Part shown: positions 27,371 to 39,413 of the stretch, piece by piece
Layout: the number at the start of each line of letters is the position of its first letter
Numbering within the stretch: position 1 is the first letter of the stretch
From: Lachnospiraceae bacterium
GTDB taxonomy: Bacteria > Bacillota > Clostridia > Lachnospirales > Lachnospiraceae
Assembly: GCA_910574195.1 (NCBI GenBank)
Contig: CAJTBF010000021.1
Coordinates: 1-41,324 of the forward strand
DNA length: 41,324 bases
Direction: 5' to 3'
Notes under the pieces: model-generated
What the model saw: only the letters and a program-made list of their open reading frames with translations
The model's database searches: none
Told to the model about the DNA's origin: nothing
Translations under genes and position numbers: made by a program

Positions 27371-27700
27371 TTATTTACGCAAAGAAGATTTCAAGGCTTG
27401 GATGGTATTTGTAATTATCATCAGTTCATGGCTGGAACAGTCTTCCAAAAGACTGCTGATTTCAGATTTGTAGGTATGTTCTGCATTATGCAGTTCATCA
27501 CATAACAGTTCATCGGCAGAGCAGGACAGGGCATTCAGTATGGCGATAAACACCTTTAAGCTGGGAATGCAATTGCCTGTTTCAATATGGGAGATGTGGG
27601 TTGTACCGACATCACATAATTCGGCCAGTTGCTCTTGGGACAGATTGCGGGCTGTTCTATATTTCCTGATTTTACTGCCAATTGTTTTATAGTCTATCAT
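27371..27700 (-). CDS. XRE-family transcriptional regulator
   Basis: A 109-residue protein with a Cro/C1-type helix-turn-helix at residues about 8-60 (KIRKYRTARNLSQEQLAELCDVGTTHISHIETGN). The C-terminal part (YKSEISSLLEDCSSHELMIITNTIQALKSSL) is a helical segment often seen in Clostridial regulators of this type. The start at 27700 is chosen because AGAGGTGA lies seven bases upstream on the - strand. It converges with the transporter operon, so it belongs to the next module. Confidence 0.9.
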   Translation of the reverse strand: MIDYKTIGSKIRKYRTARNLSQEQLAELCDVGTTHISHIETGNCIPSLKVFIAILNALSCSADELLCDELHNAEHTYKSEISSLLEDCSSHELMIITNTIQALKSSLRK

Positions 27701-27855
27701 TGCTATCACCTCTATTGCATTGTAGGTGCAAATAGACAAACTAATAATGACTTAAAAACGCATATAGACTGTATAATGCAAAAAACTATAAAAAAATATG
27801 GAATTTTGCCGATAAAACATATAAAGACTGAACCGGGTTCCATAAATGCAGGAAG

Positions 27856-28008
27856 CTGATCTTCTCCGTAAGGAACCCCGTGGCAGAGAAAGTGGAGGTC
27901 ACGGAAGGCACCGGCCTGTCGAACGTGAAGGCTGTGGCGGATAAATACGGGGGCGACTTCGCCGTCTCCTGTGACGCGGAAAAGTTCCAGGCGGTGGTGA
28001 TGTTATAA
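27856..28008 (+). pseudogene. C-terminal remnant of a GHKL histidine kinase
   Basis: Fifty codons in one frame read LIFSVRNPVAEKVEV, then NVKAVADKYGGDF and a final strand AVVML before TAA. This is the last part of a HATPase_c/GHKL domain (strand, G2-box-like NVKAVADKYGG, terminal strand), as in AgrC-like kinases. Nothing upstream in frame continues it and no start codon is available, so the rest of the kinase is deleted. The piece is richer in G+C than its flanks. It is not the tail of the kinase at 22439-23524, whose end differs. Confidence 0.75.
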
Positions 28009-28010
28009 AC

Positions 28011-28050
28011 TTTATGGTCATTTCGTGCAATTTATAGTCACTTGGTGCAA
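28011..28050. promoter_or_regulatory. 20-bp tandem direct repeat, LytTR-operator-like
   Basis: Two adjacent 20-base units, TTTATGGTCATTTCGTGCAA and TTTATAGTCACTTGGTGCAA, match at 17 of 20 positions. A repeat period of about two helical turns, directly after a GHKL kinase remnant and 93 bases before a gene, fits a binding site for a LytTR response regulator. This is inference; the cognate regulator is not next to it. Confidence 0.6.
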
Positions 28051-28142
28051 TCGCGGTTTGAAATGCGGGCGTATCTGCCGATGGATTATATGAAACGGGA
28101 TATTTTCAGAAAAAGAAAAATTATATCAAGGAGGTATGCGAT

Positions 28143-28775
28143 ATGCAGATAACAAGGGATAACTATTCACAGTATGCCAACATGGTACAGCAGATGTTTG
28201 GCAATAAGAAAAATTCCAGTGATCCGCTGGCACAGTGTGATTATGGGAATTTTGCATTGCGGTTCAAGCCGGTTGACATCAAGTTCACAAAGCCGAATTG
28301 GGACAATATCATGACTAAGCGTGACAAGCCTGCAATGTCGGAGGAGGAATTTGAGGCGGCAATCAAGGAACTGGCGCAGAAGGAATTTGCCACCGGGAAG
28401 CGGGATGATGCTGCATACAGAAAGCTGTGTATGCAGCATGGGGAGACGGTTTCCCCGGACAGGAAAGCCATCTACGAATCAAGCATGAGAAAAACGGGCG
28501 GGAAGATGAATGCGGCTTGTATGTTTTGGGATAACAATGGGAACAAGACATTATCTTATAATCCCGAATCACGGAACTGGAAGGCCATCAGCACGGAGGA
28601 GGAATTTGCAAGGGCGAGGGTGTTCACTTCCATCTACAATGATGAACTGGCACGCCTGAAAAAGGAATATGGAGAGAATGCGAAAGGAACAGTTTCCTAT
28701 CAGCAGATACAGTCTGACTTGGCGGCAGGCACAAGAGCATCGTCTTCGGGCAGCTCATTGGATATACAGGTATGA
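28143..28775 (+). CDS. Hypothetical protein of the accessory module
   Basis: A 210-residue soluble protein; ATG 28143 follows AAGGAGGT. I do not recognise a domain. The N-terminus (MQITRDNYSQYANMVQQMF) is amphipathic, the middle is Lys/Glu-rich and helical with one two-Trp strand region (MFWDNNGNKTLSYNPESRNWKAI), and the C-terminus is a Ser/Gly-rich tail (SSSGSSLDIQV). No signal peptide or membrane segment. It follows the tandem operator-like repeat and precedes the cluster of MNVNGIG proteins, so it may belong to the same regulon. A perfect 10-bp hairpin lies 15 bases after its stop. Confidence 0.7.
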   Translation: MQITRDNYSQYANMVQQMFGNKKNSSDPLAQCDYGNFALRFKPVDIKFTKPNWDNIMTKRDKPAMSEEEFEAAIKELAQKEFATGKRDDAAYRKLCMQHGETVSPDRKAIYESSMRKTGGKMNAACMFWDNNGNKTLSYNPESRNWKAISTEEEFARARVFTSIYNDELARLKKEYGENAKGTVSYQQIQSDLAAGTRASSSGSSLDIQV

Positions 28776-28790
28776 TCTTTATACCCTATT

Positions 28791-28822
28791 CCGCAGAGGC
28801 GCATAAGGCTTTGCCTCTGCGG
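28791..28822. repeat. Perfect 10-bp inverted repeat
   Basis: CCGCAGAGGC (28791-28800) and GCCTCTGCGG (28813-28822) with a 12-base loop. There is no T run on the + side, so it is more likely an mRNA stabiliser or processing site than an intrinsic terminator. Confidence 0.6.
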
Positions 28823-28840
28823 TCTGCAAGGGGCAGGGGC

Positions 28841-28859
28841 GGCTCTGAACGAGAGAGGT
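28841..28859 (+). ncRNA. Partial copy 1 of the two-hairpin leader element
   Basis: CTCT (28843-28846) pairs with AGAG (28854-28857) around GAACGAG. GCGGCTCTGAACGA matches copy 2 exactly. The first hairpin with its GGACTTATT loop is missing. Confidence 0.4.
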
Positions 28860-28952
28860 GTTATTGAATACGAATAACTAAGAGTGTGGAATTGGAGGTC
28901 ACAGAAGGCTGTAAGAATTAACGACAAATCCAAAATGACGAGGTTTCTATTT

Positions 28953-29573
28953 ATGAACAAAAATGAAAAATGGTTGGAATGGGCGATTGAGTTACAAAGC
29001 CTGGCTCAGGCAGGATTGACCTATGGAAAAGATGTTTATGATAGAGAGCGATATGAGCGGATAAGGGATATTTCTGCTGAAATATTATCATATAAAACAG
29101 ACATTTCCGTAGAAAAAGTAAAAAATTTGTTTTGCAATGAAGTCGGATACCAAACACCAAAACTTGATACAAGGGCGGCTGTATTTGAACATGAGAAAAT
29201 ACTTTTAGTAAAAGAGAATAATGGAAAATGGTCACTACCAGGCGGGTGGGTTGATGTAAATTTATCAGTAAAAGAAAACACAGTTAAAGAGGTAAAAGAA
29301 GAATCCGGATTAGATGTAACTGCTGACAGAATTATTGCGATTCAAGATAGAGATAGGCATAATTTACCAGCATATGCTTACGGCGTATGCAAAATTTTTG
29401 TTTTATGTTCTGTTTTGGGTGGGGAATTTGAAAAAAACATTGAAACAACGGAATTCCGTTATTTTAATAAAGCTGAATTACCAGAACTTGCAACAGAAAA
29501 GAATACAAAAGAGCAAATTGAAATGTGCTTTAATGCATATTACAACAAAAACTGGATAGTCGAATTTGATTGA
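28953..29573 (+). CDS. NUDIX hydrolase with N-terminal accessory domain
   Basis: A 206-residue protein: an N-terminal helical domain (MNKNEKWLEWAIELQSLAQAGLTYGKD) of the kind found before COG1051-type NUDIX domains, then the NUDIX fold. The Nudix box is GGWVDVNLSVKENTVKEVKEESGLDV: the metal-binding EVKEE core is present, the first Glu is replaced as in related enzymes with GGWVDVN, and Arg is Lys. Members hydrolyse nucleoside diphosphates linked to another group, often ADP-ribose; the substrate cannot be read here. ATG 28953 gives the usual family start; ATG 28935 is possible. The gene is clearly richer in A+T than its neighbours and pairs with the HAD gene 13 bases downstream. Confidence 0.88.
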   Translation: MNKNEKWLEWAIELQSLAQAGLTYGKDVYDRERYERIRDISAEILSYKTDISVEKVKNLFCNEVGYQTPKLDTRAAVFEHEKILLVKENNGKWSLPGGWVDVNLSVKENTVKEVKEESGLDVTADRIIAIQDRDRHNLPAYAYGVCKIFVLCSVLGGEFEKNIETTEFRYFNKAELPELATEKNTKEQIEMCFNAYYNKNWIVEFD

Positions 29574-29586
29574 AAGAAGGATAGAT

Positions 29587-30207
29587 ATGCAATATAAACA
29601 AATTGTATTTGATGTTGACGGAACTTTAATAGATACAGAATATGCAGTTCTCCACTCTTTACAAGATACCGTGGAATACATGACAGGTACAAAACCCAAA
29701 ATTGAAAAGCTCATTTTTGCATTAGGAATTACAGGTGAAGATGCATTACTGCAACTTGGAATGACGGATATTCCTTTTGTGTTATCGTTGTGGGATAAGA
29801 ATATGGAGAAATATGCCAGCCGGGTTCAGGTGTTTGACAATATTAACAACTTACTTGAACAATTGACATCATGTGGGTATGAACTTGGGATTGTTACATC
29901 AAAAACTAAGAAAGAATTCATGTGTGATTTTAGTGTATTTGGAATTGACAATTATTTCAAAACGATTGTGTGTGCAGATGATACAAACGAGCATAAACCA
30001 AATCCTGCTCCAATATTAAAATATATGGAATTGGTGCAGTGTGATAAAAAGGAATTATTATATATTGGCGATAGTGTCTATGATATGGAATGTGCTATGA
30101 GAGCAGGAATTGACTTTGCATTAGCAGGATGGGGGCAAAAAGAAAATCTGAATACGCCTATTTCCTATTTAACACCGCTTGATGCTATACAGCATTTGTG
30201 TATTTAA
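29587..30207 (+). CDS. HAD-superfamily hydrolase, phosphoglycolate-phosphatase-like
   Basis: A 206-residue HAD phosphatase. Motif I is FDVDGTLIDTE (nucleophile Asp9, general acid Asp11), motif II is GIVTSKTKKEF, motif III includes the Lys of EHKPNPAPI and motif IV is IGDSVYDMECAMRAG. A helical cap lies between residues 15 and 85. It resembles the Gph/PgmB group; the substrate is not assignable. ATG 29587 has AAAGAAGGA upstream. Same AT-rich character as the NUDIX gene, with which it probably forms a two-gene cargo unit. Confidence 0.9.
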   Translation: MQYKQIVFDVDGTLIDTEYAVLHSLQDTVEYMTGTKPKIEKLIFALGITGEDALLQLGMTDIPFVLSLWDKNMEKYASRVQVFDNINNLLEQLTSCGYELGIVTSKTKKEFMCDFSVFGIDNYFKTIVCADDTNEHKPNPAPILKYMELVQCDKKELLYIGDSVYDMECAMRAGIDFALAGWGQKENLNTPISYLTPLDAIQHLCI

Positions 30208-30216
30208 GATAAATTC

Positions 30217-30510
30217 TTGTTTGTGATAATAAAAACATATAATCCCACAGTTGCATATCTCCCAAAATACACAGAGGCGGGAAGGGCAAGCATCTCTGGC
30301 GTTCCGGGGGAAAATGTGTTTGTAGATGAAGATGAGATTGAATCAGCGGATGCAACGATATCCTACGATGAAGAAACAGAGCAGCATTCAATAGAATTTT
30401 CGTTAAAGACAAATGGTAAGGTAGACAGAGAGAAAATTGAAGTTTATAAAACCTATCTTAGTAAAACATATGCGGATGTGATTTTGATAATTGATGGGGA
30501 GACTATGTAA
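30217..30510 (+). pseudogene. Probable 5'-truncated hypothetical gene
   Basis: A frame of about 97 codons (KTYNPTVAYLPKYTEAGR ... FSLKTNGKVDREKIEVYKTYLSKTYADVILIIDGETM). It has only a TTG without a ribosome site and begins ten bases after the HAD gene. The composition is that of a real protein C-terminus. A likely explanation is that the AT-rich NUDIX-HAD unit replaced the start of this gene. I do not recognise a domain. Confidence 0.5.
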
Positions 30511-30627
30511 GGAAATAGGATAGAGCAGGATTTCCCGGTAGATTGGGGAATTGGGGGAGCAGCGAGAGGAGGTGAAGGTCAGTATGGAATTTGACAGGGG
30601 GAGTTAGGATATAGGAAACAATGAACT

Positions 30628-30673
30628 GCTCGGACTTATTGCGAGGGAGCGGATGCGGCTCTGAACGACAGAG
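30628..30673 (+). ncRNA. Two-hairpin leader element, copy 2
   Basis: First helix GCTC (30628-30631) with GAGC (30647-30650), extendable to six pairs, loop with GGACTTATT. Second helix CTCTG (30659-30663) with CAGAG (30669-30673) around AACGA. It ends 33 bases before ATG 30707. Confidence 0.5.
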
Positions 30674-30706
30674 GGGCTGACAAAAATAATGGAGGAGATT
30701 AAGAAA

Positions 30707-31129
30707 ATGAATGTAAACGGAATAGGAGCAGGTTATGCAGTAGCAGGGTATGAAACGAGAAAGGCAGAGAGGAATGCGGCGGGCAGGAATTTTGCTGATG
30801 CAATAAACAAAGCAGCACCAAAGAAAGAAACGAATGCTTTCAGACCGGAGAGTTCTGATGAGGTGATGCAGGCATGGGATAAGGCACTTGCGGAAACGGG
30901 AGTAAATCCTTTCCCGATGAACCGCATTTCAACGGCATTGGTACTGCACGTTGAAAGCGGGCAGCAGGGTTTGAGTTCCACATTTTTGGGTGACAGCACA
31001 GGCTCCGCAAAGTCAATGGCTGAAAAGATTATACATAGGCTGGAGAATCCGCTGACCCCGGCGGCGAACCCGGATTTTGCAGGGCAGGAATTGATGTTCT
31101 ATAAAAAGTTCTTAGAGTTTTTGGGATAG
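30707..31129 (+). CDS. MNVNGIG-leader protein 1
   Basis: A 140-residue protein starting at ATG 30707 (GGAGGAG at 30691-30697), consistent with the start of its paralogue at 32954. Residues 1-22 share with that paralogue the pattern MNVNGIG, (A)GYxxAGYETR and a following basic ...RN. The remainder is unrelated to the paralogue: SSDEVMQAWDKALAETGVNPFPMN, a Ser/Gly-rich middle, and a helical C-terminus ending MFYKKFLEFLG. No signal peptide by the usual criteria and no membrane helix. I recall similar N-termini in Lachnospiraceae hypothetical proteins but know no function. A conserved N-terminus on varying bodies suggests a targeting or recognition tag. Confidence 0.75.
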   Translation: MNVNGIGAGYAVAGYETRKAERNAAGRNFADAINKAAPKKETNAFRPESSDEVMQAWDKALAETGVNPFPMNRISTALVLHVESGQQGLSSTFLGDSTGSAKSMAEKIIHRLENPLTPAANPDFAGQELMFYKKFLEFLG

Positions 31130-31133
31130 TGAA

Positions 31134-31181
31134 ATGCCTGGACTTATTATAAGAGGGCATGGGGGGTTCTGAATGACAGAA
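31134..31181 (+). ncRNA. Two-hairpin leader element, copy 3
   Basis: First helix ATGCC (31134-31138) with GGCAT (31156-31160), loop with GGACTTATT (31140-31148). Second helix TTCTG (31167-31171) with CAGAA (31177-31181) around AATGA. Both helices differ from copy 2 but keep pairing. An orphan ribosome site (GGAGGATTAAGA, 31209-31220) follows, then the IS110 insertion. Confidence 0.5.
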
Positions 31182-31220
31182 GAAACGCCAATAAATATTG
31201 ATAACAATGGAGGATTAAGA

Positions 31221-31318
31221 AGTTTGAAACTTAGACGTGGAGGATAGCCGCAAAAAAGCGTATAGCAAAAGTTTGAAACTTAGACGTGGAGGATAGCCGC
31301 AAAAAAGCGTATAGCAAA
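31221..31318. repeat. Perfect 49-bp tandem repeat at the IS110 right side
   Basis: Two identical 49-base units (31221-31269 and 31270-31318), each beginning AGTTTGAAACTTAGACG and ending GCGTATAGCAAA. They start directly at the insertion junction and end about 45 bases before the transposase stop. Confidence 0.95.
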
Positions 31319-31363
31319 CAAGCCATCCCCAGACAGCCCCAAAAAACTATGCGTAGAAGGAAG

Positions 31364-32620
31364 TCAGGCAACGTCAACCGTATCGTCAGCTATGGTATAG
31401 CCTCTTAGCCTGAGAAGCTCAAGGGCCTGGGACTTAGTCAATACCTTTTTCTCATTGACAGGCCTGTGCTCTAAAAATCCGCTGGGGTTATAAGGCTCAA
31501 GCTTGCTCAGCATGTTCCAGATAGCGGTCAGGAGCATCTTGCAGACAGCAATGACAGCCTTTTTATGTCCCCGGTTGGACTTGATCCTGTGATACCTCTC
31601 TTTGAATTCAGGATGCTTTTTGGACTTGATGAGGGCATTGGCGACCTGGATCAGAAGGGGTTTCAAATAAGAACCGGCAGTGGAGATGCGCCTGGATTTC
31701 ACCTTACTGTTGCTCTGGTCGTTGCGGGGGCAGCAGCCAGCCCAGGAGACAAGATGCTTCGATGACGGAAACACGGACATGTCCGGGCCAATCTCGGAGA
31801 GGATGGCAATAGCGGTCATCGGGTTCTTGTCCAACCCGGGAAGCGTGCGGAGCAGATCCAATACAGCGGAGAAAGGTTCGGCAATCAGGAATATCTCCTG
31901 CTCGATCTCTTTCCGGTGGGCCTCAAGCTCGTCGATGTGCGCAAGGCATTGGCGCAGCTTGACGGCCTGTTCGGGAGAGACTGCCCCGTCAACGGCAGCC
32001 TGTATCTCCTCCAAAGGGGCCTTGCAGCGCCTGTCCACAAACGGCGCGACATCGAAAGCCTCGCCAGGATGGTCAAGGATGTACTGGGTGATGGACCGGG
32101 CAGACTTTCCAAAGACATCACTGAAGACATCATCAAGCTTCAGGTTGGAGACAGTCAGGCAGTTCTGGGCACGGTTCTTCTCCCCGACGAGCATGTTGGT
32201 GAGCTTGGAGCGGTAACGCACCAGGTCGCGGAGCTGACGGATTTCAGGGGAGGGGATAAAACTTGGTCTTATCATGTCGCACATGAAAAGGTCACAGATC
32301 CATTTGGCATCCTTGCGGTCGGTCTTGTTCCCTTTCTGGGGCTTGGTATACTTGGGATGCGCAAGGGTAACAAAACAGGATTTCTCAAGGATGTTGAAAA
32401 CAGGGATCCAGTACTTGCCGGTGGATTCCATACAGACCTCAAAACAAGAGTATTTGGCAAGCCAGTCAGCCAGCTCCCGCAGACCTTTGGAAAAGGAAGA
32501 GAAGCGGGCCTGCCTATACTCTGTGAGGCCGTTGGTATCGGTGATTCCGATGCATGCATAGATCCAGGTCTTGTGGACGTCAAGCCCACAGCAGTTCTTA
32601 CGAAAGATTTTAAAAGCCAA
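31364..32620 (-). CDS. IS110-family transposase (DEDD plus Transposase_20)
   Basis: A 418-residue recombinase. The N-terminal RuvC-like DEDD domain shows GLDVHK (first Asp), CMESTGKYWIPVF (Glu) and NKTDRKDAKWICDL (two Asp). A coiled linker follows, then the C-terminal Transposase_20 domain with RTLPGLDKNPMTAIAILSEIG and SWAGCCPRND...SRRISTAGSYLKPLLIQVA, which holds the catalytic serine. The start is TTG 32620, with AGGAGGCG eight bases upstream. It appears intact. IS110 enzymes use a bridge RNA made from the non-coding end of the element to choose target and donor DNA. Confidence 0.95.
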   Translation of the reverse strand: MAFKIFRKNCCGLDVHKTWIYACIGITDTNGLTEYRQARFSSFSKGLRELADWLAKYSCFEVCMESTGKYWIPVFNILEKSCFVTLAHPKYTKPQKGNKTDRKDAKWICDLFMCDMIRPSFIPSPEIRQLRDLVRYRSKLTNMLVGEKNRAQNCLTVSNLKLDDVFSDVFGKSARSITQYILDHPGEAFDVAPFVDRRCKAPLEEIQAAVDGAVSPEQAVKLRQCLAHIDELEAHRKEIEQEIFLIAEPFSAVLDLLRTLPGLDKNPMTAIAILSEIGPDMSVFPSSKHLVSWAGCCPRNDQSNSKVKSRRISTAGSYLKPLLIQVANALIKSKKHPEFKERYHRIKSNRGHKKAVIAVCKMLLTAIWNMLSKLEPYNPSGFLEHRPVNEKKVLTKSQALELLRLRGYTIADDTVDVA

Positions 32621-32639
32621 TAAAAACGCCTCCTGTAAG

Positions 32640-32880
32640 GATATTTGCAGGGCAGGCAGGGACTGGCCATCCGGCGAAAAACGAGTGCATTTCGGAAGAG
32701 ATAAGTTTACGGGCTAAAAGAGGTGTGCAGGCACCCTCTTGTTTGCGCCATTCATTGATGCCTTAACAGATGGCCGACACCATATAAAAATGCGGGGTCG
32801 CCGCTATACAGCCCCGCCACTCACCTCCTCGGGTTCTGTAGTATGCCGGCATCCTGCAAGGTGAGTATAACAGATAAAAG
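32640..32880 (-). ncRNA. Candidate IS110 bridge RNA region
   Basis: About 330 non-coding bases lie 5' of the transposase, where IS110-group elements encode their bridge RNA. On the - strand a promoter-like TTTCAC, a 17-base gap and TATACT read into the region at its left edge, followed by several short inverted repeats, for example GCGGGG with CCCCGC at 32792-32818. The exact ends and the two guide loops cannot be assigned by eye. Confidence 0.4.
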
Positions 32881-32888
32881 CGATGAGT

Positions 32889-32932
32889 GAAAGGCACAAT
32901 GGCTGGGTTCCATAACCCCATCGGTGCCTTTC
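32889..32932. repeat. Long hairpin at the IS110/gene boundary
   Basis: GAAAGGCAC (32889-32897) pairs with GTGCCTTTC (32924-32932); inside it, ATGG pairs with CCAT and GGGTT with AACCC. It lies just before the start of the second MNVNGIG gene. Confidence 0.7.
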
Positions 32933-32953
32933 GCAGAAAGGCGGTTTATAAAA

Positions 32954-33520
32954 ATGAATGTAAACGGAATAGGAGCAGCAGGATACCCGGCGGCAGGGTA
33001 TGAGACAAGAAGGGCAAGAAGGAATTACGCTGACCAGATGTGTAATATGGTTCCGGCAACACAGTCGTCCGGCGGCACATTTGAGTTACATATTTCAAAC
33101 GATAAGGACGGAAAGGCAATCGGCTCAATGTGTGGGGCGGATTATTCCCTTACGGTCTATCAGCCGAAGGACTTTGACCCTGCAAACCCGGTATATAAAG
33201 TGAAGGTATGGGATAAAGGCGGAAATGTGACAGAACGCATGGTGGATGTGTCGAAAGTTGACACAGCGGGCAGCGACTATATAGATATGTTTGCATATTC
33301 CAGCCACTTATCGGCAAGCGGGAAATGTCCGGGCGCACAGTCTGCTTTTATCAGGGCAGGGGCAAATCAGCATGGTGCTGGTGATAGGACACATGAAGAC
33401 TTGTTCGGGATGAAAGACTGGATCAGCGTTTTAAAGGATGCCATGCAGACGCAGTATGATGCCGGGAATCTGAAAGGATATCTTGATTATAAGCAGTTCT
33501 GGGATTTTCTGGATAAGTAG
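32954..33520 (+). CDS. MNVNGIG-leader protein 2
   Basis: A 188-residue protein. Residues 1-23 (MNVNGIG, then AAGYPAAGYETR and basic residues) match protein 1. The rest differs: a beta-rich middle (FELHISNDKDGKAIG, YSLTVYQPKDFD, YKVKVWDKGGNVTERMVDVSK) and a helical C-terminus (HEDLFGMKDWISVLKDAMQTQYD ... QFWDFLDK). No signal peptide, membrane helix or recognised catalytic motif. Its original leader RNA and ribosome site lie on the far side of the IS110 element; the present ribosome site is a weak AAAGGCGG at 32937-32944. It may therefore be silenced or expressed from the IS side. Function unknown. Confidence 0.75.
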   Translation: MNVNGIGAAGYPAAGYETRRARRNYADQMCNMVPATQSSGGTFELHISNDKDGKAIGSMCGADYSLTVYQPKDFDPANPVYKVKVWDKGGNVTERMVDVSKVDTAGSDYIDMFAYSSHLSASGKCPGAQSAFIRAGANQHGAGDRTHEDLFGMKDWISVLKDAMQTQYDAGNLKGYLDYKQFWDFLDK

Positions 33521-33629
33521 GATTATCAACAAAGTAAATACGTTAAAGGGAATCAACAGGCATATTGCTAAAAGAAAAGACGAAGGGATTTTGCGGGTAG
33601 AGAATATATAGAGGGTAGTTTAGAAATAA

Positions 33630-33671
33630 AGGCGTCTATTGGAAGATACCAATAGATGCCTTTGCACTTTT
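33630..33671. terminator. Terminator after MNVNGIG protein 2
   Basis: AGGCGTCTATTGG (33630-33642) pairs with CCAATAGATGCCT (33649-33661), with one wobble, then TTTGCACTTTT. It could serve both strands, since the XRE gene at 33734 converges on it. Confidence 0.7.
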
Positions 33672-33733
33672 AAGACGGTGCATAAATGATGATTTTTAGA
33701 TTTGGATGGCTGTTGCGGATGCGGCAGAGAGTG

Positions 33734-34063
33734 TTATTTCCGCAACAGGCCAAGCAGGTAGCGGATCATAGGTATCAGGTCAGCAGCTTCCTGTTCCGTG
33801 CAGTCTTTTTGCAGGACCAGGAGTTTCTGAAGGTTTGGGGTTTCTTCTTTGTATGCCGGATCAAAGATTTTGTCGGCTGGTATTTTCAGGTATGTAACCA
33901 GGGGGTACAGCTTTTCAAATTTGGGGTTTCCCCGTCCGGCTTCGATATTAAGTATGGTGCGTGAGTCAATATTCAGGATTTCGGCAAGTTTTTCATGCGA
34001 GAGTCCGAGTCCAGTCCGGGCATCACGCACTGCGGCAGCAAGATTTTGTTTTGCTTCATTCAT
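33734..34063 (-). CDS. XRE-family transcriptional regulator
   Basis: A 109-residue protein with a Cro/C1 helix-turn-helix in residues about 12-66 (VRDARTGLGLSHEKLAEILNIDSRTILNIEAGRGNP). The C-terminal half is helical (KDCTEQEAADLIPMIRYLLGLL). A GAGGTGA ribosome site lies about eight bases before the start on the - strand. It is downstream of the relaxase gene in the same orientation, about 220 bases away, and probably regulates the mobilisation module or itself. Confidence 0.9.
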   Translation of the reverse strand: MNEAKQNLAAAVRDARTGLGLSHEKLAEILNIDSRTILNIEAGRGNPKFEKLYPLVTYLKIPADKIFDPAYKEETPNLQKLLVLQKDCTEQEAADLIPMIRYLLGLLRK

Positions 34064-34283: not shown

Positions 34284-35684
34284 TTAGAGGGTATTTTGGT
34301 TTTTTTCCACTTTTTTGTCAACAGCCGCCTGCTCCGGGGTACGGTCAAGATATTGGTTGAGGTTATCCAGTTTCCGGTTAAGGTCAGCGCTTTCCTTTTC
34401 GGCAGTTTTATAAGTTTTCTGTAAAGCCTGCTTTTTGGAATAGAGCGCATTGTAGTCGCTGCGGAGCTTTTCGACATCAAGGTTTTTTGTGTTAATGCCA
34501 AAGCGTTTCAGCATATTTTTAGCGCCGTCATGGAGCAGAAGCTCCGTTTCGTGCTGGCGCAGGTATCTGTCCTTATCCTTTGACTTCTGGTAGCGGATAT
34601 GGTAGATGCGGTTGGCTTTGTACTGCTCGGCATATTTCAAAACCTGCCCTAAATCCTTTAGCTGATGCTCGGTTTCCACAAGGCTCTCACGGGCTGTTTT
34701 TGCCAGTGTGGACTTGGCGGCGATCTGCTTTTCAAGCTCGGAAATAGAGCCTGCCTGACTGTAACTTGCGGCGGCAATTTTAAGGTTTTGAATGTCAGCC
34801 CAATGTTTCAGGCCAGGGCTTTCAGCAAACTTATCCTCGGTGGTGTCAATAAGATTTTTCCTTGAATAATCTTTGACAACGGGCTTCTTCCGGGCAGGGA
34901 ACGGAATACGCTTTTTTTCCTTAGCAAGCGCCTTTTCCTCAATGCGCTCCCTGATGCGTTCTTTGGTGTACTCCGTTCCTAAAGACTTTGCGCTCCCACG
35001 GACAAAACGCTCCCTGTCCAGAGGACGGAATGAGATAAATTTATGTGCTTTCTCCCCAAAGTCCGCACCTTTGATTTCATAACCTTTTGCCCGGATCAGC
35101 TCAATGCAGTCATCGTAGGTGGCGGCGTTTTTAATGGCTTCGTCAATGTCGGACTTTAACTGTTCTTTCCATGCGGAACCGTTTTTTCCGGCCTGCCATT
35201 CCCTGTAAGTTTTCCCCCGTTTTTCACCCGGAGTAATGATGGAAAGTTTATGCTCCCGGCAGAGGTCATCGCTCAGGCTGCGGATGTTGTAATAGCTCTT
35301 TTTGCAGTCATGGTATTTCGCATGATTGATGTTATCGGCGGCGCAGAAAATGATGTGGTTGTGGACATGCCCTTTATCAATGTGGGTGGTGACAACATAA
35401 GAGTATTTCCCCTCCAAAAGTTTGTCGGCAAGCTCCACGCCTATCTGGTGGGCTTCCTTATAAGAAACCTCACCGGGAAGAAAAGACTGTATCAGGTGAT
35501 AGGCTTTATTTGGATCGGACTGCCTGGTCTTTGACAGCGCAAATTTGAAATCGTAGGCTGCAGTTTCAGGGCTGCACCCATAAGAGGAAATCAGTATGCC
35601 CTCATCAGTTTTGCTTGGATTACAAATGTAGTCTACTGCTTTATTGACGGTTGCCGTGACAGCATGGATTTTTGTGTATGCCAT
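34284..35684 (-). CDS. MOBP-type relaxase/mobilisation nuclease
   Basis: A 466-residue relaxase that would nick oriT and lead the transferred strand. The N-terminal domain has the putative catalytic tyrosine in AVDYICNPSKT (Tyr19) and the metal-binding His cluster HIDKGHVHNHIIF (His101, 106, 108, 110). Residues 190-290 are linker-like, and about 310-460 form a long coiled-coil (ISELEKQIAAKSTLAKTARESL..., ALYSKKQALQKTYKTAEKESADL). The start overlaps mobC by about 50 bases, so the two are translationally coupled. The set MobC-relaxase with inverted repeats upstream is the arrangement of Tn1549-like elements. Confidence 0.93.
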   Translation of the reverse strand: MAYTKIHAVTATVNKAVDYICNPSKTDEGILISSYGCSPETAAYDFKFALSKTRQSDPNKAYHLIQSFLPGEVSYKEAHQIGVELADKLLEGKYSYVVTTHIDKGHVHNHIIFCAADNINHAKYHDCKKSYYNIRSLSDDLCREHKLSIITPGEKRGKTYREWQAGKNGSAWKEQLKSDIDEAIKNAATYDDCIELIRAKGYEIKGADFGEKAHKFISFRPLDRERFVRGSAKSLGTEYTKERIRERIEEKALAKEKKRIPFPARKKPVVKDYSRKNLIDTTEDKFAESPGLKHWADIQNLKIAAASYSQAGSISELEKQIAAKSTLAKTARESLVETEHQLKDLGQVLKYAEQYKANRIYHIRYQKSKDKDRYLRQHETELLLHDGAKNMLKRFGINTKNLDVEKLRSDYNALYSKKQALQKTYKTAEKESADLNRKLDNLNQYLDRTPEQAAVDKKVEKNQNTL

Positions 35685-35974
35685 ACCTTTTGCATCAGCT
35701 CCTTTACTTCTTTTACATCGGCTTTGTATACGTTGCCTGTGGCATTCATGCGCTTTGCGATCTGGTTTAAGTTGTTCCCGATTTTTGCAAGCGCAGCATT
35801 GTATTCCCGAAGCTCTGAGTAGTCAATGTCATAGACATAACCGTACAAAATCAGATGCCGCAGGAAAGAGGACTTGTCTTTCATATGGGAGGCTTTACAT
35901 TTCTGCTCCAGTATGTAAAGTTCATCATCGCTCAGACGCAGGGTTAGGCGGTTTTGGCGTTCTCGGTTCTCCAT
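35633..35974 (-). CDS. mobC: MobC-like relaxosome accessory protein
   Basis: A 113-residue protein with an N-terminal ribbon-helix-helix (NRLTLRLSDDELYILEQKCKASHMKDKSSFLRHLIL) and the MobC motif EYNAALAKIGNNLNQIAKRMNATGNVY. Such proteins bind oriT and help the relaxase open the nick region. The ATG at 35974 is preferred because AAAGGAG lies about ten bases upstream on the - strand; ATG 35995 is possible. The first gene of the mobilisation operon, reading away from the oriT candidate. Confidence 0.9.
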   Translation of the reverse strand: MENRERQNRLTLRLSDDELYILEQKCKASHMKDKSSFLRHLILYGYVYDIDYSELREYNAALAKIGNNLNQIAKRMNATGNVYKADVKEVKELMQKVWHTQKSMLSRQPSIKQ

Positions 35975-36049
35975 TGTTTGGGAAGCTCCTTTCATAAAAA
36001 ATGTTCTGTTTTTGTAATATGCCGTATCCGGCGGGAGGGTTTTTCAAGC

Positions 36050-36275
36050 GTAAAAATTCAGAAATTCCGCAGAGGTAATTTCTGAATTTTGGAGCGCAAA
36101 GGGGGTCAGGGGGATATGCCCTCTGCAAGCCAATTTTCTCAAGTTTCCGCTTGAAGGAAACTTGGGGAAATTGAAGCCTACGGACGTCCGTAGGCAGTGC
36201 TTGCTATTCTTGGCAAATTACCCGTAGGGAATTTGCGTGTTGTGCGAGCTTAGGCGAGCGTCTTACAACACATAT
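36050..36275. other. Candidate origin of transfer (oriT)
   Basis: A non-coding stretch just upstream of mobC with a series of inverted repeats: 14-bp perfect arms AAAATTCAGAAATT / AATTTCTGAATTTT (36053-36066, 36077-36090); CAAGTTTCC / GGAAACTTG (36140-36148, 36156-36164); a perfect 20-bp palindrome with half GCCTACGGAC (36176-36195); an imperfect GCAAATTACCC / GGGAATTTGC; and GTGTTGT / ACAACAC near 36236-36275. Position next to mobC-relaxase and this architecture are typical of oriT. The nick site is not assigned. The remaining 36276-36634 holds one more hairpin (CAGGGCA/TGCCCTG, 36364-36381) and no gene that I can support. Confidence 0.65.
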
Positions 36276-36634
36276 GGGCGTTTCCGCCCCTGCTTTTGAA
36301 AGGCCCTGCGGATATTTGGCTTTTGGGATTGTCCTGGCAAATAAAAAACTGCCACAACCAAAACAGGGCAGAGTTGCCCTGATCCGGCTCATAGCAGTTT
36401 GAGTGTCCGTTGATGAAGTTGTGATTTTATCCACTAAAGATTTTAACAAGCGGCAGGAGGAAAGTCAACAAAAGATAGCAGGAGAAAAACAAAAGACGGA
36501 GGTATAAAGGCTGTCAAAAGAGTGGGGCAGGAGAGAACCGGAAAACTTTTTAAATTATTTTTTTGAATAGGAACGGATTGTTCGGGTTCGTTTTTTACAA
36601 TGTGATTGGAGAATTAGCAGAAGGGAGGTGAAGC

Positions 36635-36964
36635 ATGAATACAGCAGACCGCAGGACGGAAATCATTAACATTCTGATTATCCGGCGGCGTACAACGGCA
36701 AGGGAACTGGCGGACGAATTTGGCGTCACTACCCGCACGATACAAAAAGATATTCAGGCTTTATCTCCCGGATACCCGATTTATACAAAGCAGGGAGGGG
36801 ATGGTGGGATTTTTATAGGGGATGATTACAAGCCATATGTGAATACCCTTTCTGCTGACGAGCTAAAAACTCTGCGTGAAATATATGGACAGGCAGAGGG
36901 AGCGCAAAAGAAAATCCTGTTGCAGATCATACATAAATACGGCCCCGATAAACTGGAATTATAA
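36635..36964 (+). CDS. HTH_11/DeoR-type DNA-binding protein
   Basis: A 109-residue protein; ATG 36635 follows AAGGGAGGTGA. The N-terminal winged helix-turn-helix (RRTEIINILIIRRRTTARELADEFGVTTRTIQKDIQAL) is that of HTH_11/DeoR-like regulators. The usual C-terminal sensor (WYL or sugar-binding) domain is missing; instead there is a short beta turn and one helix (LSADELKTLREIYGQ). A stand-alone HTH of this kind is frequent near the recombination module of ICEs. It may regulate excision genes; its target is not visible. Confidence 0.85.
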   Translation: MNTADRRTEIINILIIRRRTTARELADEFGVTTRTIQKDIQALSPGYPIYTKQGGDGGIFIGDDYKPYVNTLSADELKTLREIYGQAEGAQKKILLQIIHKYGPDKLEL

Positions 36965-37074
36965 ACTTGCCATTCCGCTAAAGCACATAATCTTTACAGA
37001 ACTGTTCATAGCAGACAGAGAGTGCTTATGTGCTTTTTGGGCTGGCAAGTCCAGAAGAGATTTTATCCAAAACA

Positions 37075-37217
37075 GGCAGAGGGTTTTCTGCCCGCCAACG
37101 CAGGTTGGCATGTGTACCTTGATAATTGAATATGTAAATACATACGGGACGTGTGGGATGTGCGGAGCCGCTATGCGGACACGCCAAGAACTGCCTGCTT
37201 CCATTTTTGTGTGGAAG
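37075..37217. other. Hairpin-dense non-coding stretch
   Basis: Between the HTH gene and the small gene at 37522 are about 550 bases with no convincing gene. Within them are consecutive inverted repeats: GGCAGA/TCTGCC (37075-37092), GCCAAC/GTTGGC (37094-37109), TATGTA/TACATA (37131-37144), CCGC/GCGG within CGTGT/ACACG (37150-37183) and CTTCCA/TGGAAG (37198-37217). It could be a structured RNA, a second origin or a recombination-linked site. Confidence 0.4.
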
Positions 37218-37521
37218 TGCATACGAGGGAATACTGAAATCTGGTATTGAAGTTAAGGCAGTGAGCGATGAATGTCTGGCGAAAAGTGCAGCAGTTGCAT
37301 GAGGCAATGAGGCATATCTTTGATAATGATACTTCCGGGTTTTCCGGTCAGTTTGGAATGACGGTGCGATACCGATGTGGGCAGTGTAATGAGCTGTCAC
37401 TCGTATGTGTTTTTTTGAAAAGGATTGGAGAAAAGTTTTGTCTGCTGATGAGAGCCGGGAAAACGGTTCGTGGTTGTCATGGGCAGATAAAGTCTTGTTG
37501 TAATGTTTGGAGGTGATTTTT

Positions 37522-37698
37522 TTGGGAAAAAGAGAGGATATGAATCTTATCATGGGGCATGATGAAGAAATTATAATGGCTCTTGCAATGATACGGCATA
37601 TGTATCATAAAGGAGAAATTTCCGAGATTGTGTATAAGAATATTCGAAAAGATTATTTGCCAAAGATAAAAAGTGTTGCGCTCAGAGAGAAATTGTGA
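37522..37698 (+). CDS. Small SHOCT-like protein before the recombinase
   Basis: A 58-residue protein. TTG 37522 is chosen because GGAGGTGA (37509-37516) is well spaced. The second half, ALAMIRHMYHKGEISEIVYKNIRKDYL, resembles the SHOCT short helical pattern (a helix, a Gly turn, I-x-x-x-x-Y/F, a second helix). It lies 50 bases before the serine recombinase and may act as a small accessory or recombination directionality factor; that is inference from position alone. Confidence 0.6.
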   Translation: MGKREDMNLIMGHDEEIIMALAMIRHMYHKGEISEIVYKNIRKDYLPKIKSVALREKL

Positions 37699-37748
37699 TA
37701 TTATGAATGCGTGGTAACAAAGTAGGAAGTTTAAGAGGGTAGAAATAT

Positions 37749-39413
37749 ATGGAAAGAACTGTGGCGATTTATGCAAGAGTTTCAACAGAACATGAAGCAC
37801 AGCTCTCAGCCTTAGAAAATCAAGTCCAGTATTATGACGATCTTCTTGCAAAGCACCCGGACTGGACACTATATGAAAGATATATAGATGAGGGAATAAC
37901 GGGTACTTCTGTAAAAAAGCGACAGAGTTTTTTGCGAATGATGGAAGATGCGGAAGATAGGAAATTTGACCTGATTATCACAAGAGAGGTTTCGAGGTTT
38001 GCGAGGAATACAGTTGATACTTTGCAGCAAACAAGAATATTAAAAAAATATGGTGTGGAGGTGTATTTTACAGAGGATAATATCTGGACAATGAATGACG
38101 AGGACGGAGAGCTGCGTTTGACGATCATGGCAACTCTGGCACAGAATGAAAGCAAAAAGACTTCAATCAGGGTAAAGGCCGGACAGAAAGTTTCTTTTCA
38201 AAATGCTGTGCCATACGGAACCGGAAACATACTCGGCTATGACAGGGTTGGAAAAGAATTTGTCATCAATGAGGAACAGGCAAAAACGGTACGCATGATT
38301 TTTGATATGTATCTTGACGGAATGGGATTAAGGCAGATACAATTTGCTTTGGAAGGTGCAGGGAGGCTAACCGCTACCGGATTGAAAAATTGGAGTTGTT
38401 CTACTATCAGCAGGGTACTTAACAATGCTTTCTATTGTGGAACGATTGTATATAGGAAAGAATATGTACCTGATTATCTGGAACAAAAGAAAATCAAAAA
38501 TCACGGAGAGATAGAAAATATAGTGGCAGAAGGTACGCACATTCCCATTGTTACTAAGGAAGAATATGCCAGAGTGAAAAAGAAGATGGATGCGAAAACA
38601 CAATCTGTCGATAATCGTGGCAAGAGGGGGAAACACGCATCAGGAGATGTGTGGACAAAAAAATTGAAGTGTAGCTGTTCGGGTGGCAGCTTTAACCGGA
38701 GAGTGTGGCATAGGGTAGCGTCAGGGGAACCACAATACGCATATCAGTGTTACAAGCAGATTACCACAGGTACTATTGCTACAAGAACAAAGAAAGGTCT
38801 TAGCCTGGAGGGGATTTGTGAGGCTCCAATGGTTCCAAGATGGAAATTAGAGGTTATGGCAAAAGTGGTTTTTCAAAATTTCTGGAAAGACCGGACAGCG
38901 GTAAGGCTGATTGCCGAGGAAATGCTTGAAAGACATATCCAAGATGACCGATACATAAATTTTGAAAAAGAAATCAAAGAGTTGAAAACCAAGATTGCCA
39001 AAACTGATAAAAAGTACGAAAATCTTGTTGATCTCCGGGTAAATGGCGAGATTGACAAAGCCATGTTTGACCTAAAGAAAAAGGAATTGTTGGAAGAAAA
39101 GGAAAGACTTGAAAGGCAGTTAGAAGGTTATCAAGTAGACGAGGATATGTCGGATGAGGACTATAATCGCAGACTGGAGGTATTAAAATGCGGGCTGGAA
39201 AATAATTTTGATTTTTCGGTGTATGACATTCCAGAGGAAATAATAGATGATTTTGTAGATGAGATAATTGTTTACAAAGACTGCTTCTTATGGAAATTGA
39301 GTATGTTTGGCGATGAAACACGGATGAAACTTTGTGTAAACAAGGACAAGTCCGTAGAAATTGAAAAAACCCCTAACGTTGATACACGCGGCACAGGCGG
39401 CTATATGCAGTAG
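37749..39413 (+). CDS. Large serine recombinase (integrase of the ICE)
   Basis: A 554-residue recombinase that catalyses integration and excision. The N-terminal resolvase domain has the nucleophile Ser12 in IYARVSTEHE, then REVSRFARNTVDTL and the E-helix region. A Recombinase domain follows (about 165-270, PYGTGNILGYDRVGKEFVINEEQAKTVRMIFDMYLDGMGLRQI), then a zinc-ribbon-like segment (CSCSGGSF, YQCYK and EGICEAP) and a long coiled-coil (about 395-470). The C-terminus ends in a DUF4368-like short segment. It is the last gene on the element side; the attachment site should lie near its 3' end or upstream of it. Start ATG 37749; the ribosome site GAGGGTAG is weak. Confidence 0.93.
   Translation: MERTVAIYARVSTEHEAQLSALENQVQYYDDLLAKHPDWTLYERYIDEGITGTSVKKRQSFLRMMEDAEDRKFDLIITREVSRFARNTVDTLQQTRILKKYGVEVYFTEDNIWTMNDEDGELRLTIMATLAQNESKKTSIRVKAGQKVSFQNAVPYGTGNILGYDRVGKEFVINEEQAKTVRMIFDMYLDGMGLRQIQFALEGAGRLTATGLKNWSCSTISRVLNNAFYCGTIVYRKEYVPDYLEQKKIKNHGEIENIVAEGTHIPIVTKEEYARVKKKMDAKTQSVDNRGKRGKHASGDVWTKKLKCSCSGGSFNRRVWHRVASGEPQYAYQCYKQITTGTIATRTKKGLSLEGICEAPMVPRWKLEVMAKVVFQNFWKDRTAVRLIAEEMLERHIQDDRYINFEKEIKELKTKIAKTDKKYENLVDLRVNGEIDKAMFDLKKKELLEEKERLERQLEGYQVDEDMSDEDYNRRLEVLKCGLENNFDFSVYDIPEEIIDDFVDEIIVYKDCFLWKLSMFGDETRMKLCVNKDKSVEIEKTPNVDTRGTGGYMQ

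Follow-up and report, generated by a model that had tools for sequence, protein, structure and literature searches.

Background

FlbT of Caulobacter and Agrobacterium acts on the leaders of flagellin mRNAs, and the CsrA-FliW-hag leader system of Bacillus subtilis is a case of leader-based translation control coupled to the export of a flagellar subunit. In Salmonella the hook protein FlgE is reportedly controlled after transcription, to go by the titles of a Bonifield paper of 2000 and a Lee and Hughes paper of 2006, and the title of the former is said to make that control responsive to the stage of assembly. Here we describe a small structured RNA in a stretch of 41,324 nucleotides (nt) from a Lachnospiraceae bacterium (contig CAJTBF010000021.1; this whole stretch is called the window below), where it stands before genes of an array that encodes proteins of unknown function, and which outside such arrays is usually the leader of the hook gene flgE.

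The RNA shares with the FlbT system that a dedicated flagellar protein, here a candidate, would act in step with assembly on the mRNA of an axial protein, at its 5' leader, and it differs in that FlbT's target is flagellin, whereas this leader belongs to flgE and flgG and is an RNA defined by covariation. The likeness to Salmonella lies in a hook protein that, by those titles, is controlled after transcription, but the phylum is another one. In comparison with CsrA-FliW-hag, the controlled gene is that of the hook and not of flagellin, and 7 of 69 RNA-positive genomes have no CsrA match. The format, a small conserved cis-regulatory leader, is that of many Rfam families, yet no relevant family was matched: the whole window at gathering score gave nothing except an unrelated pemK RNA, and relaxed thresholds gave no relevant match in window positions 27500-34000 or in 12 flgE and array loci. 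A widespread structured RNA without an Rfam entry can now be assigned to the flagellar hook gene.

The RNA element and its structure

When the window was searched without filters, using a covariance model trained on 56 copies (copies 1 and 2 among them, copy 3 not), the matches were copy 1 at 30624..30683 (E 1.7e-16), copy 2 at 31132..31191 (E 6.7e-16) and a degenerate copy 3 at 28809..28867 (E 2.4e-4), all on the forward strand; the next-best one had an E of 0.63. An earlier note made from the sequence had placed two copies at 30628-30673 and 31134-31181, which are indeed there with the ends now refined, and a partial copy at 28841-28859. Since the search returns 28809-28867, the latter is a piece of a degenerate full-length copy rather than a partial one.

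The RNA is about 58 nt long and consists of two hairpins. Hairpin 1 has an outer stem, a GGA bulge on the 5' side that usually faces one purine, and a short inner stem, and hairpin 2 has a stem of about 8 base pairs (bp) closed by the 10-nt loop GAHYGACAGA; the bulge and the loop are nearly invariant. In copy 1, which lies 25 nt 5' of the ATG at 30707, hairpin 1 reads GCTC-GGA-CTT...GAG-G-GAGC and the hairpin 2 loop is GAACGACAGA. Copy 2 begins 2 nt past the stop of the first of two genes here called MNVNGIG genes, and its hairpin 1 reads TGCCT-GGA-CTT...AAG-A-GGGCA, while the loop of hairpin 2 is intact on a stem with some mismatches. Copy 3, between a gene of MQITRDN type and a Nudix gene, resembles the copy of another locus, L062.

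This is a conserved structured cis RNA with stems that covary above both shuffled and slid controls, of which only the slid control preserves relatedness. In an alignment made without a model (56 of 67 matches, 11 duplicate, weak or odd rows being omitted), 93.0% of 877 cells were paired, cells with a double change numbered 78 compared with 26.9 in shuffles, and the covariation score was 0.403, compared with 0.275 for shuffles and 0.196 when the alignment was slid to its best alternative. Alignments fitted to the model gave scores of 0.366 against 0.263 for 132 distinct copies and 0.587 against 0.208 for 25 flgE leaders, and none of 500 shuffles reached any of the three scores. In the flgE leaders most stem positions vary with pairing kept, and in that model-fitted alignment double-change cells numbered 101 compared with 31.9 after shuffling. 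The claim that the stems change as pairs was borne out for hairpin 1, where a 10-copy alignment has U-A replaced by C-G in 3 of 10 rows at one position and 1 of 10 at another. For hairpin 2, drawn in the earlier note as CTCTG-AAYGA-CAGAG, the 8-bp stem with a 10-nt loop is probably the better pairing. Both forms pair about 93% of cells, but in the longer stem 18 double changes at column 39 leave 55 of 56 rows paired, whereas with the partner drawn in the note 11 of the 56 lose their pair; the note's form also has the lower score, 0.307 against 0.403.

The place of the RNA relative to the genes is also constrained. By pooling 66 matches with 150 aligned ones out of 161 found with R2 (one of the models used in the searches below) and removing 9 duplicates, we obtained 207 distinct matches, of which 175 have an open reading frame (ORF) with a Shine-Dalgarno sequence within 140 nt, while under this rule the other 32 lack one. 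The gap from RNA to start is 22-36 nt in 139 of the 175 (median 28), whereas the distance to the upstream stop, determined for 146 matches, varies from 0 to 393 nt. Together with the covariation controls, these counts give good support to the earlier proposal of a covarying cis-acting RNA at a nearly fixed spot 5' of ribosome sites.

Distribution and the flgE leader

The same proposal had tied the RNA to the MNVNGIG gene family and called for a covariance model and a search of relatives. Such searches did return matches before further genes with pairing preserved, and they revealed a range much wider than that family. In 299 family genomes, an exact pattern of the two loops had matches in 12 (its reversed control in 3), with the motif's tight spacing in the window genome, G190, G289, G291 and G295 and scattered, chance-like matches in the other seven. 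Among 397 genomes of the window's family, 46 had a match to a covariance model built from 10 copies (R1) at an E cut-off of 0.05, and in G291 there were 13 matches, several in clusters. A model of flgE leaders (R3) picked out 91 of 341 genomes of the class at an E cut-off of 0.01, with a single match in 87 of the 91, and 101 of 348 genomes of the phylum at an E cut-off of 0.001. When named genome contigs were scanned with a pattern, at least 117 stretches matched; the 80 loci among those listed mostly bear Lachnospiraceae names, the rest being labelled uncultured bacterium, Clostridia, Eubacteriales or, for two, a Bacteroidetes-type name, and R2 found 161 copies in these 80 at E up to 0.01 (of the two Bacteroidetes-labelled loci, L167 has a match and L166 none). 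In another locus (L070:1966-2213), tandem RNA copies about 130 nt apart lie 5' of a single gene.

The usual home of the RNA outside arrays is the flgE leader, directly after a flagellar gene of the TIGR02530 family. The scan of named contigs had turned up the RNA before flgE in one locus (L195), and we examined flgE in 30 hand-picked family genomes positive for FlhA, 20 of them R1-positive and 10 R1-negative. R2 found the RNA at 24 of the 30 flgE loci at E up to 0.018 (the match in L271 being shortened), and an unfiltered R3 search of six flgE loci added L261, L287, L288 and L289 at E up to 0.0019, for a total of 28 of 30, with all 10 R1-negative genomes among the carriers. Only sequence resembling hairpin 1 remains, by eye, in L290, and no RNA was found at flgE in L285, where the operon runs directly from flgD to flgE and TIGR02530 is absent. 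Of the loci matched by R3 in the class and phylum samples, 59 were examined, and a gene of FlgE/FlgG type, judged by an N-terminal pattern, comes next in 55; two of the other four are array copies (one being the window) and two lie at a contig end. In five genomes (L353, L355, L356, L357 and L358) a copy stands 5' of the distal rod gene flgG, and the three of these five proteins that were scanned all exceeded the cut-off of FlgG models.

As the RNA leads flgE at all three levels sampled (family, class and phylum), precedes flgG, and precedes array genes whose proteins differ in body, it is not a signal of the MNVNGIG family. In some Lachnospiraceae it is repeated before arrayed unknown genes, MNVNGIG genes included, and many of the array proteins start with M-x-I/V-x-G-I with tyrosines close by and then diverge. 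Because the flgE copies are spread more widely, we infer that flgE was the source of the leader and the arrays its recipients.

A candidate reader and the link to flagellar export

TIGR02530, encoded directly 5' of the RNA at flgE, is the leading candidate for a protein that would read it, which suggests a function for this uncharacterised family. Of 98 loci (95 places), 89 had a match to its hidden Markov model. Among the nine that lack it, six are flgG entries (five places) and two are array loci; the ninth is L285, the sole flgE locus in which no RNA was found. The assignment itself was clear in the three proteins scanned, with 99.3, 108.3 and 115 bits against an NCBIfam cut-off of 83.2. 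In 62 of 79 measured loci the GGA lies 5-9 nt past the TIGR02530 stop. The C-terminal domain has a predicted RelE/ParE-like arrangement, a weak likeness. TIGR02530 could itself be exported, since its N-terminus is disordered-like and carries an F...phi motif, the form taken by the gate recognition motif of exported flagellar subunits.

Occurrence of the RNA goes together with the flagellar export gate. FlhA was found in 25 of 25 R1-positive and 22 of 50 R1-negative family genomes, the positives being 25 of the 46 R1-matching genomes (best E up to 8.1e-5) and the negatives non-matching genomes of completeness at least 95, hand-picked from the front of the list; several of the 22 do have a flgE leader that R1 missed. 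In the class, 38 of 40 RNA-positive genomes had FlhA compared with 7 of 40 RNA-negative ones, the positives being drawn from the 91 with the seven that lack CsrA placed first, and the negatives being non-matching genomes of any completeness in near-running order. The two RNA-positive genomes without FlhA are G726, which has an array, and G493, with the RNA before flgE. DUF6033, which matched 10 of 49 scanned array proteins, occurs in 30 of 47 FlhA-positive and 0 of 28 FlhA-negative genomes.

According to PMC8983047, early subunits of Salmonella carry a hydrophobic signal at the N-terminus (residues 2-5 in FlgD) and, further in (residues 36-40 in FlgD), a gate recognition motif, with a spacing that matters. 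We looked at 120 array proteins, left after removal of those shorter than 70 amino acids (aa) or lying over 60 nt away from the RNA and then of those under 140 aa. Residue 3 is V, I, M, F or L in 116 of them, and an F...phi motif starts at residues 20-50 in 66 of 120 compared with 11% of shuffled sequences, the positions being taken from Salmonella FlgD; elsewhere it starts at residues 60-90 in 9 and at 100-130 in 16 of the 120. These N-termini suggest the flagellum as a possible exit route for the array proteins, and we predict the same route for DUF6033 and its uncharacterised relatives in motile gut Lachnospiraceae.

Function of the leader

We lean, if only slightly, towards a cis-acting mRNA leader that acts in translation control and belongs to flagellar export substrates of the early, rod-hook class. 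The bulge and the loop would be recognised by a trans-acting factor, which would tune the translation, or perhaps the stability, of hook and rod mRNAs to the stage of flagellum assembly, and the array proteins would belong to the regulon because the type III export gate of the flagellum would let them out early, ahead of the switch to late substrates. The RNA may in this way couple protein production to flagellum building, and it offers a Gram-positive handle on the post-transcriptional matching of hook synthesis to assembly. With TIGR02530 as the leading candidate for the factor, its own export on opening of the gate could lift the repression, much as FlgM export is known to free sigma-28, but on translation. 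A bolder version, which we find somewhat unlikely, makes the leader an RNA tag for export through the flagellar gate and TIGR02530 an exported, RelE-fold, mRNA-binding repressor, the counterpart of FlgM in translation, the export of which would release hook, rod and cargo mRNAs; mobile arrays in gut Lachnospiraceae would have captured the tag for a large, variable set of non-flagellar proteins. Were this true, the flagellum of Gram-positive gut commensals would be a general secretion machine.

The position of the GGA, within the operon and at the same short distance past the upstream stop in those 62 of 79 flgE loci, would also suit a processing or stability element between operon genes, giving hook, rod and cargo transcripts a stability of their own with no sensing of assembly stage, and the array copies too are often intergenic. 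We think this unlikely, as an unspecific stabiliser should not need conserved letters in bulge and loop. That conservation could instead mark a CsrA site: CsrA controls flagellin translation in Bacillus, the GGA of hairpin 1 is nearly invariant, and CsrA was matched in 62 of the 69 RNA-positive genomes, so that hook, rod and array mRNAs might all be under CsrA and FliW. CsrA sites, however, usually lie in an apical loop in A(N)GGA context, whereas this GGA is in an internal bulge, and the conserved loop of hairpin 2 is left unexplained. Of the seven genomes without a CsrA match, G509 is a single contig listed as 100% complete with FlhA present and an R3 match at E 1.5e-6, and we regard control by CsrA as improbable.

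A riboswitch, in which the two hairpins bind a small molecule linked to motility, would be compact and conserved, would have two conserved unpaired segments and could occur in many copies, as in the genome with 13. In 80 array leaders, however, the ribosome site is predicted to be unpaired at 0.758 with the RNA present and 0.654 with the RNA part shuffled, so the RNA does not hide it, and we hold this reading to be no more probable than the preceding one. The repeats between array genes of variable body, and the mobile-element genes that adjoin the window array, would fit an attC-like single-stranded-DNA recombination site that builds gene arrays. Such a site seems very improbable, given a spacing that is nearly fixed to the downstream start but variable to the upstream stop, and the single copies of 87 of 91 class-sample genomes, located at flgE where checked.

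The array of the window and its surroundings

In the window, copy 1 leads MNVNGIG gene 1 (30707..31129, forward strand, 140 aa, with another in-frame start at 30689) as the earlier note had it, but copy 2 is now parted from MNVNGIG gene 2 (32954..33520, forward strand, 188 aa) by an element that carries an IS110-family transposase (31364..32620, reverse strand). The interval is unbroken, without IS110, in another locus (L024). Neither MNVNGIG protein had a match in Pfam or NCBIfam (for gene 1 at E up to 1), and the predicted structure of the gene 2 protein, which has very low confidence over most of residues 1-41 followed by a folded domain, gave no clear match in the PDB. An array-type gene whose protein starts MQITRDNYSQY lies at 28143..28775 (forward strand, 210 aa), and in L064 a protein that starts likewise adjoins a GHKL kinase. 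Such a kinase was found 5' of the array in six of six array loci tested, and a LytTR regulator in three of three.

The array adjoins genes for a MobA-type relaxase and a serine recombinase (34284-39413), a region that is probably a mobilisable element. In the flgE leaders of the window genome and two relatives (L287, L288 and L289), hairpin 2 has an altered loop that is shorter, and its stem is longer. Because of these neighbours, the IS110 insertion and the changed loop in the genome's own flgE leader, the window array fits one that was acquired and is decaying; the degenerate third copy would be a further mark of decay.

Three minor observations concern these loci. A pemK RNA (RF02913) scored above the gathering score at window positions 37323-37378, 5' of a short ORF and the serine recombinase. 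In L064 (2060-2523) an RNA copy and an MNVNGIG-type N-terminus continue into a frame overlapping a recombinase-like fragment, making a chimeric array gene. Finally, a locus from another family of the class (L350, G726:C11:1-14000) combines an array with a LytTR regulator and a GHKL kinase in a genome with no FlhA or CsrA match.
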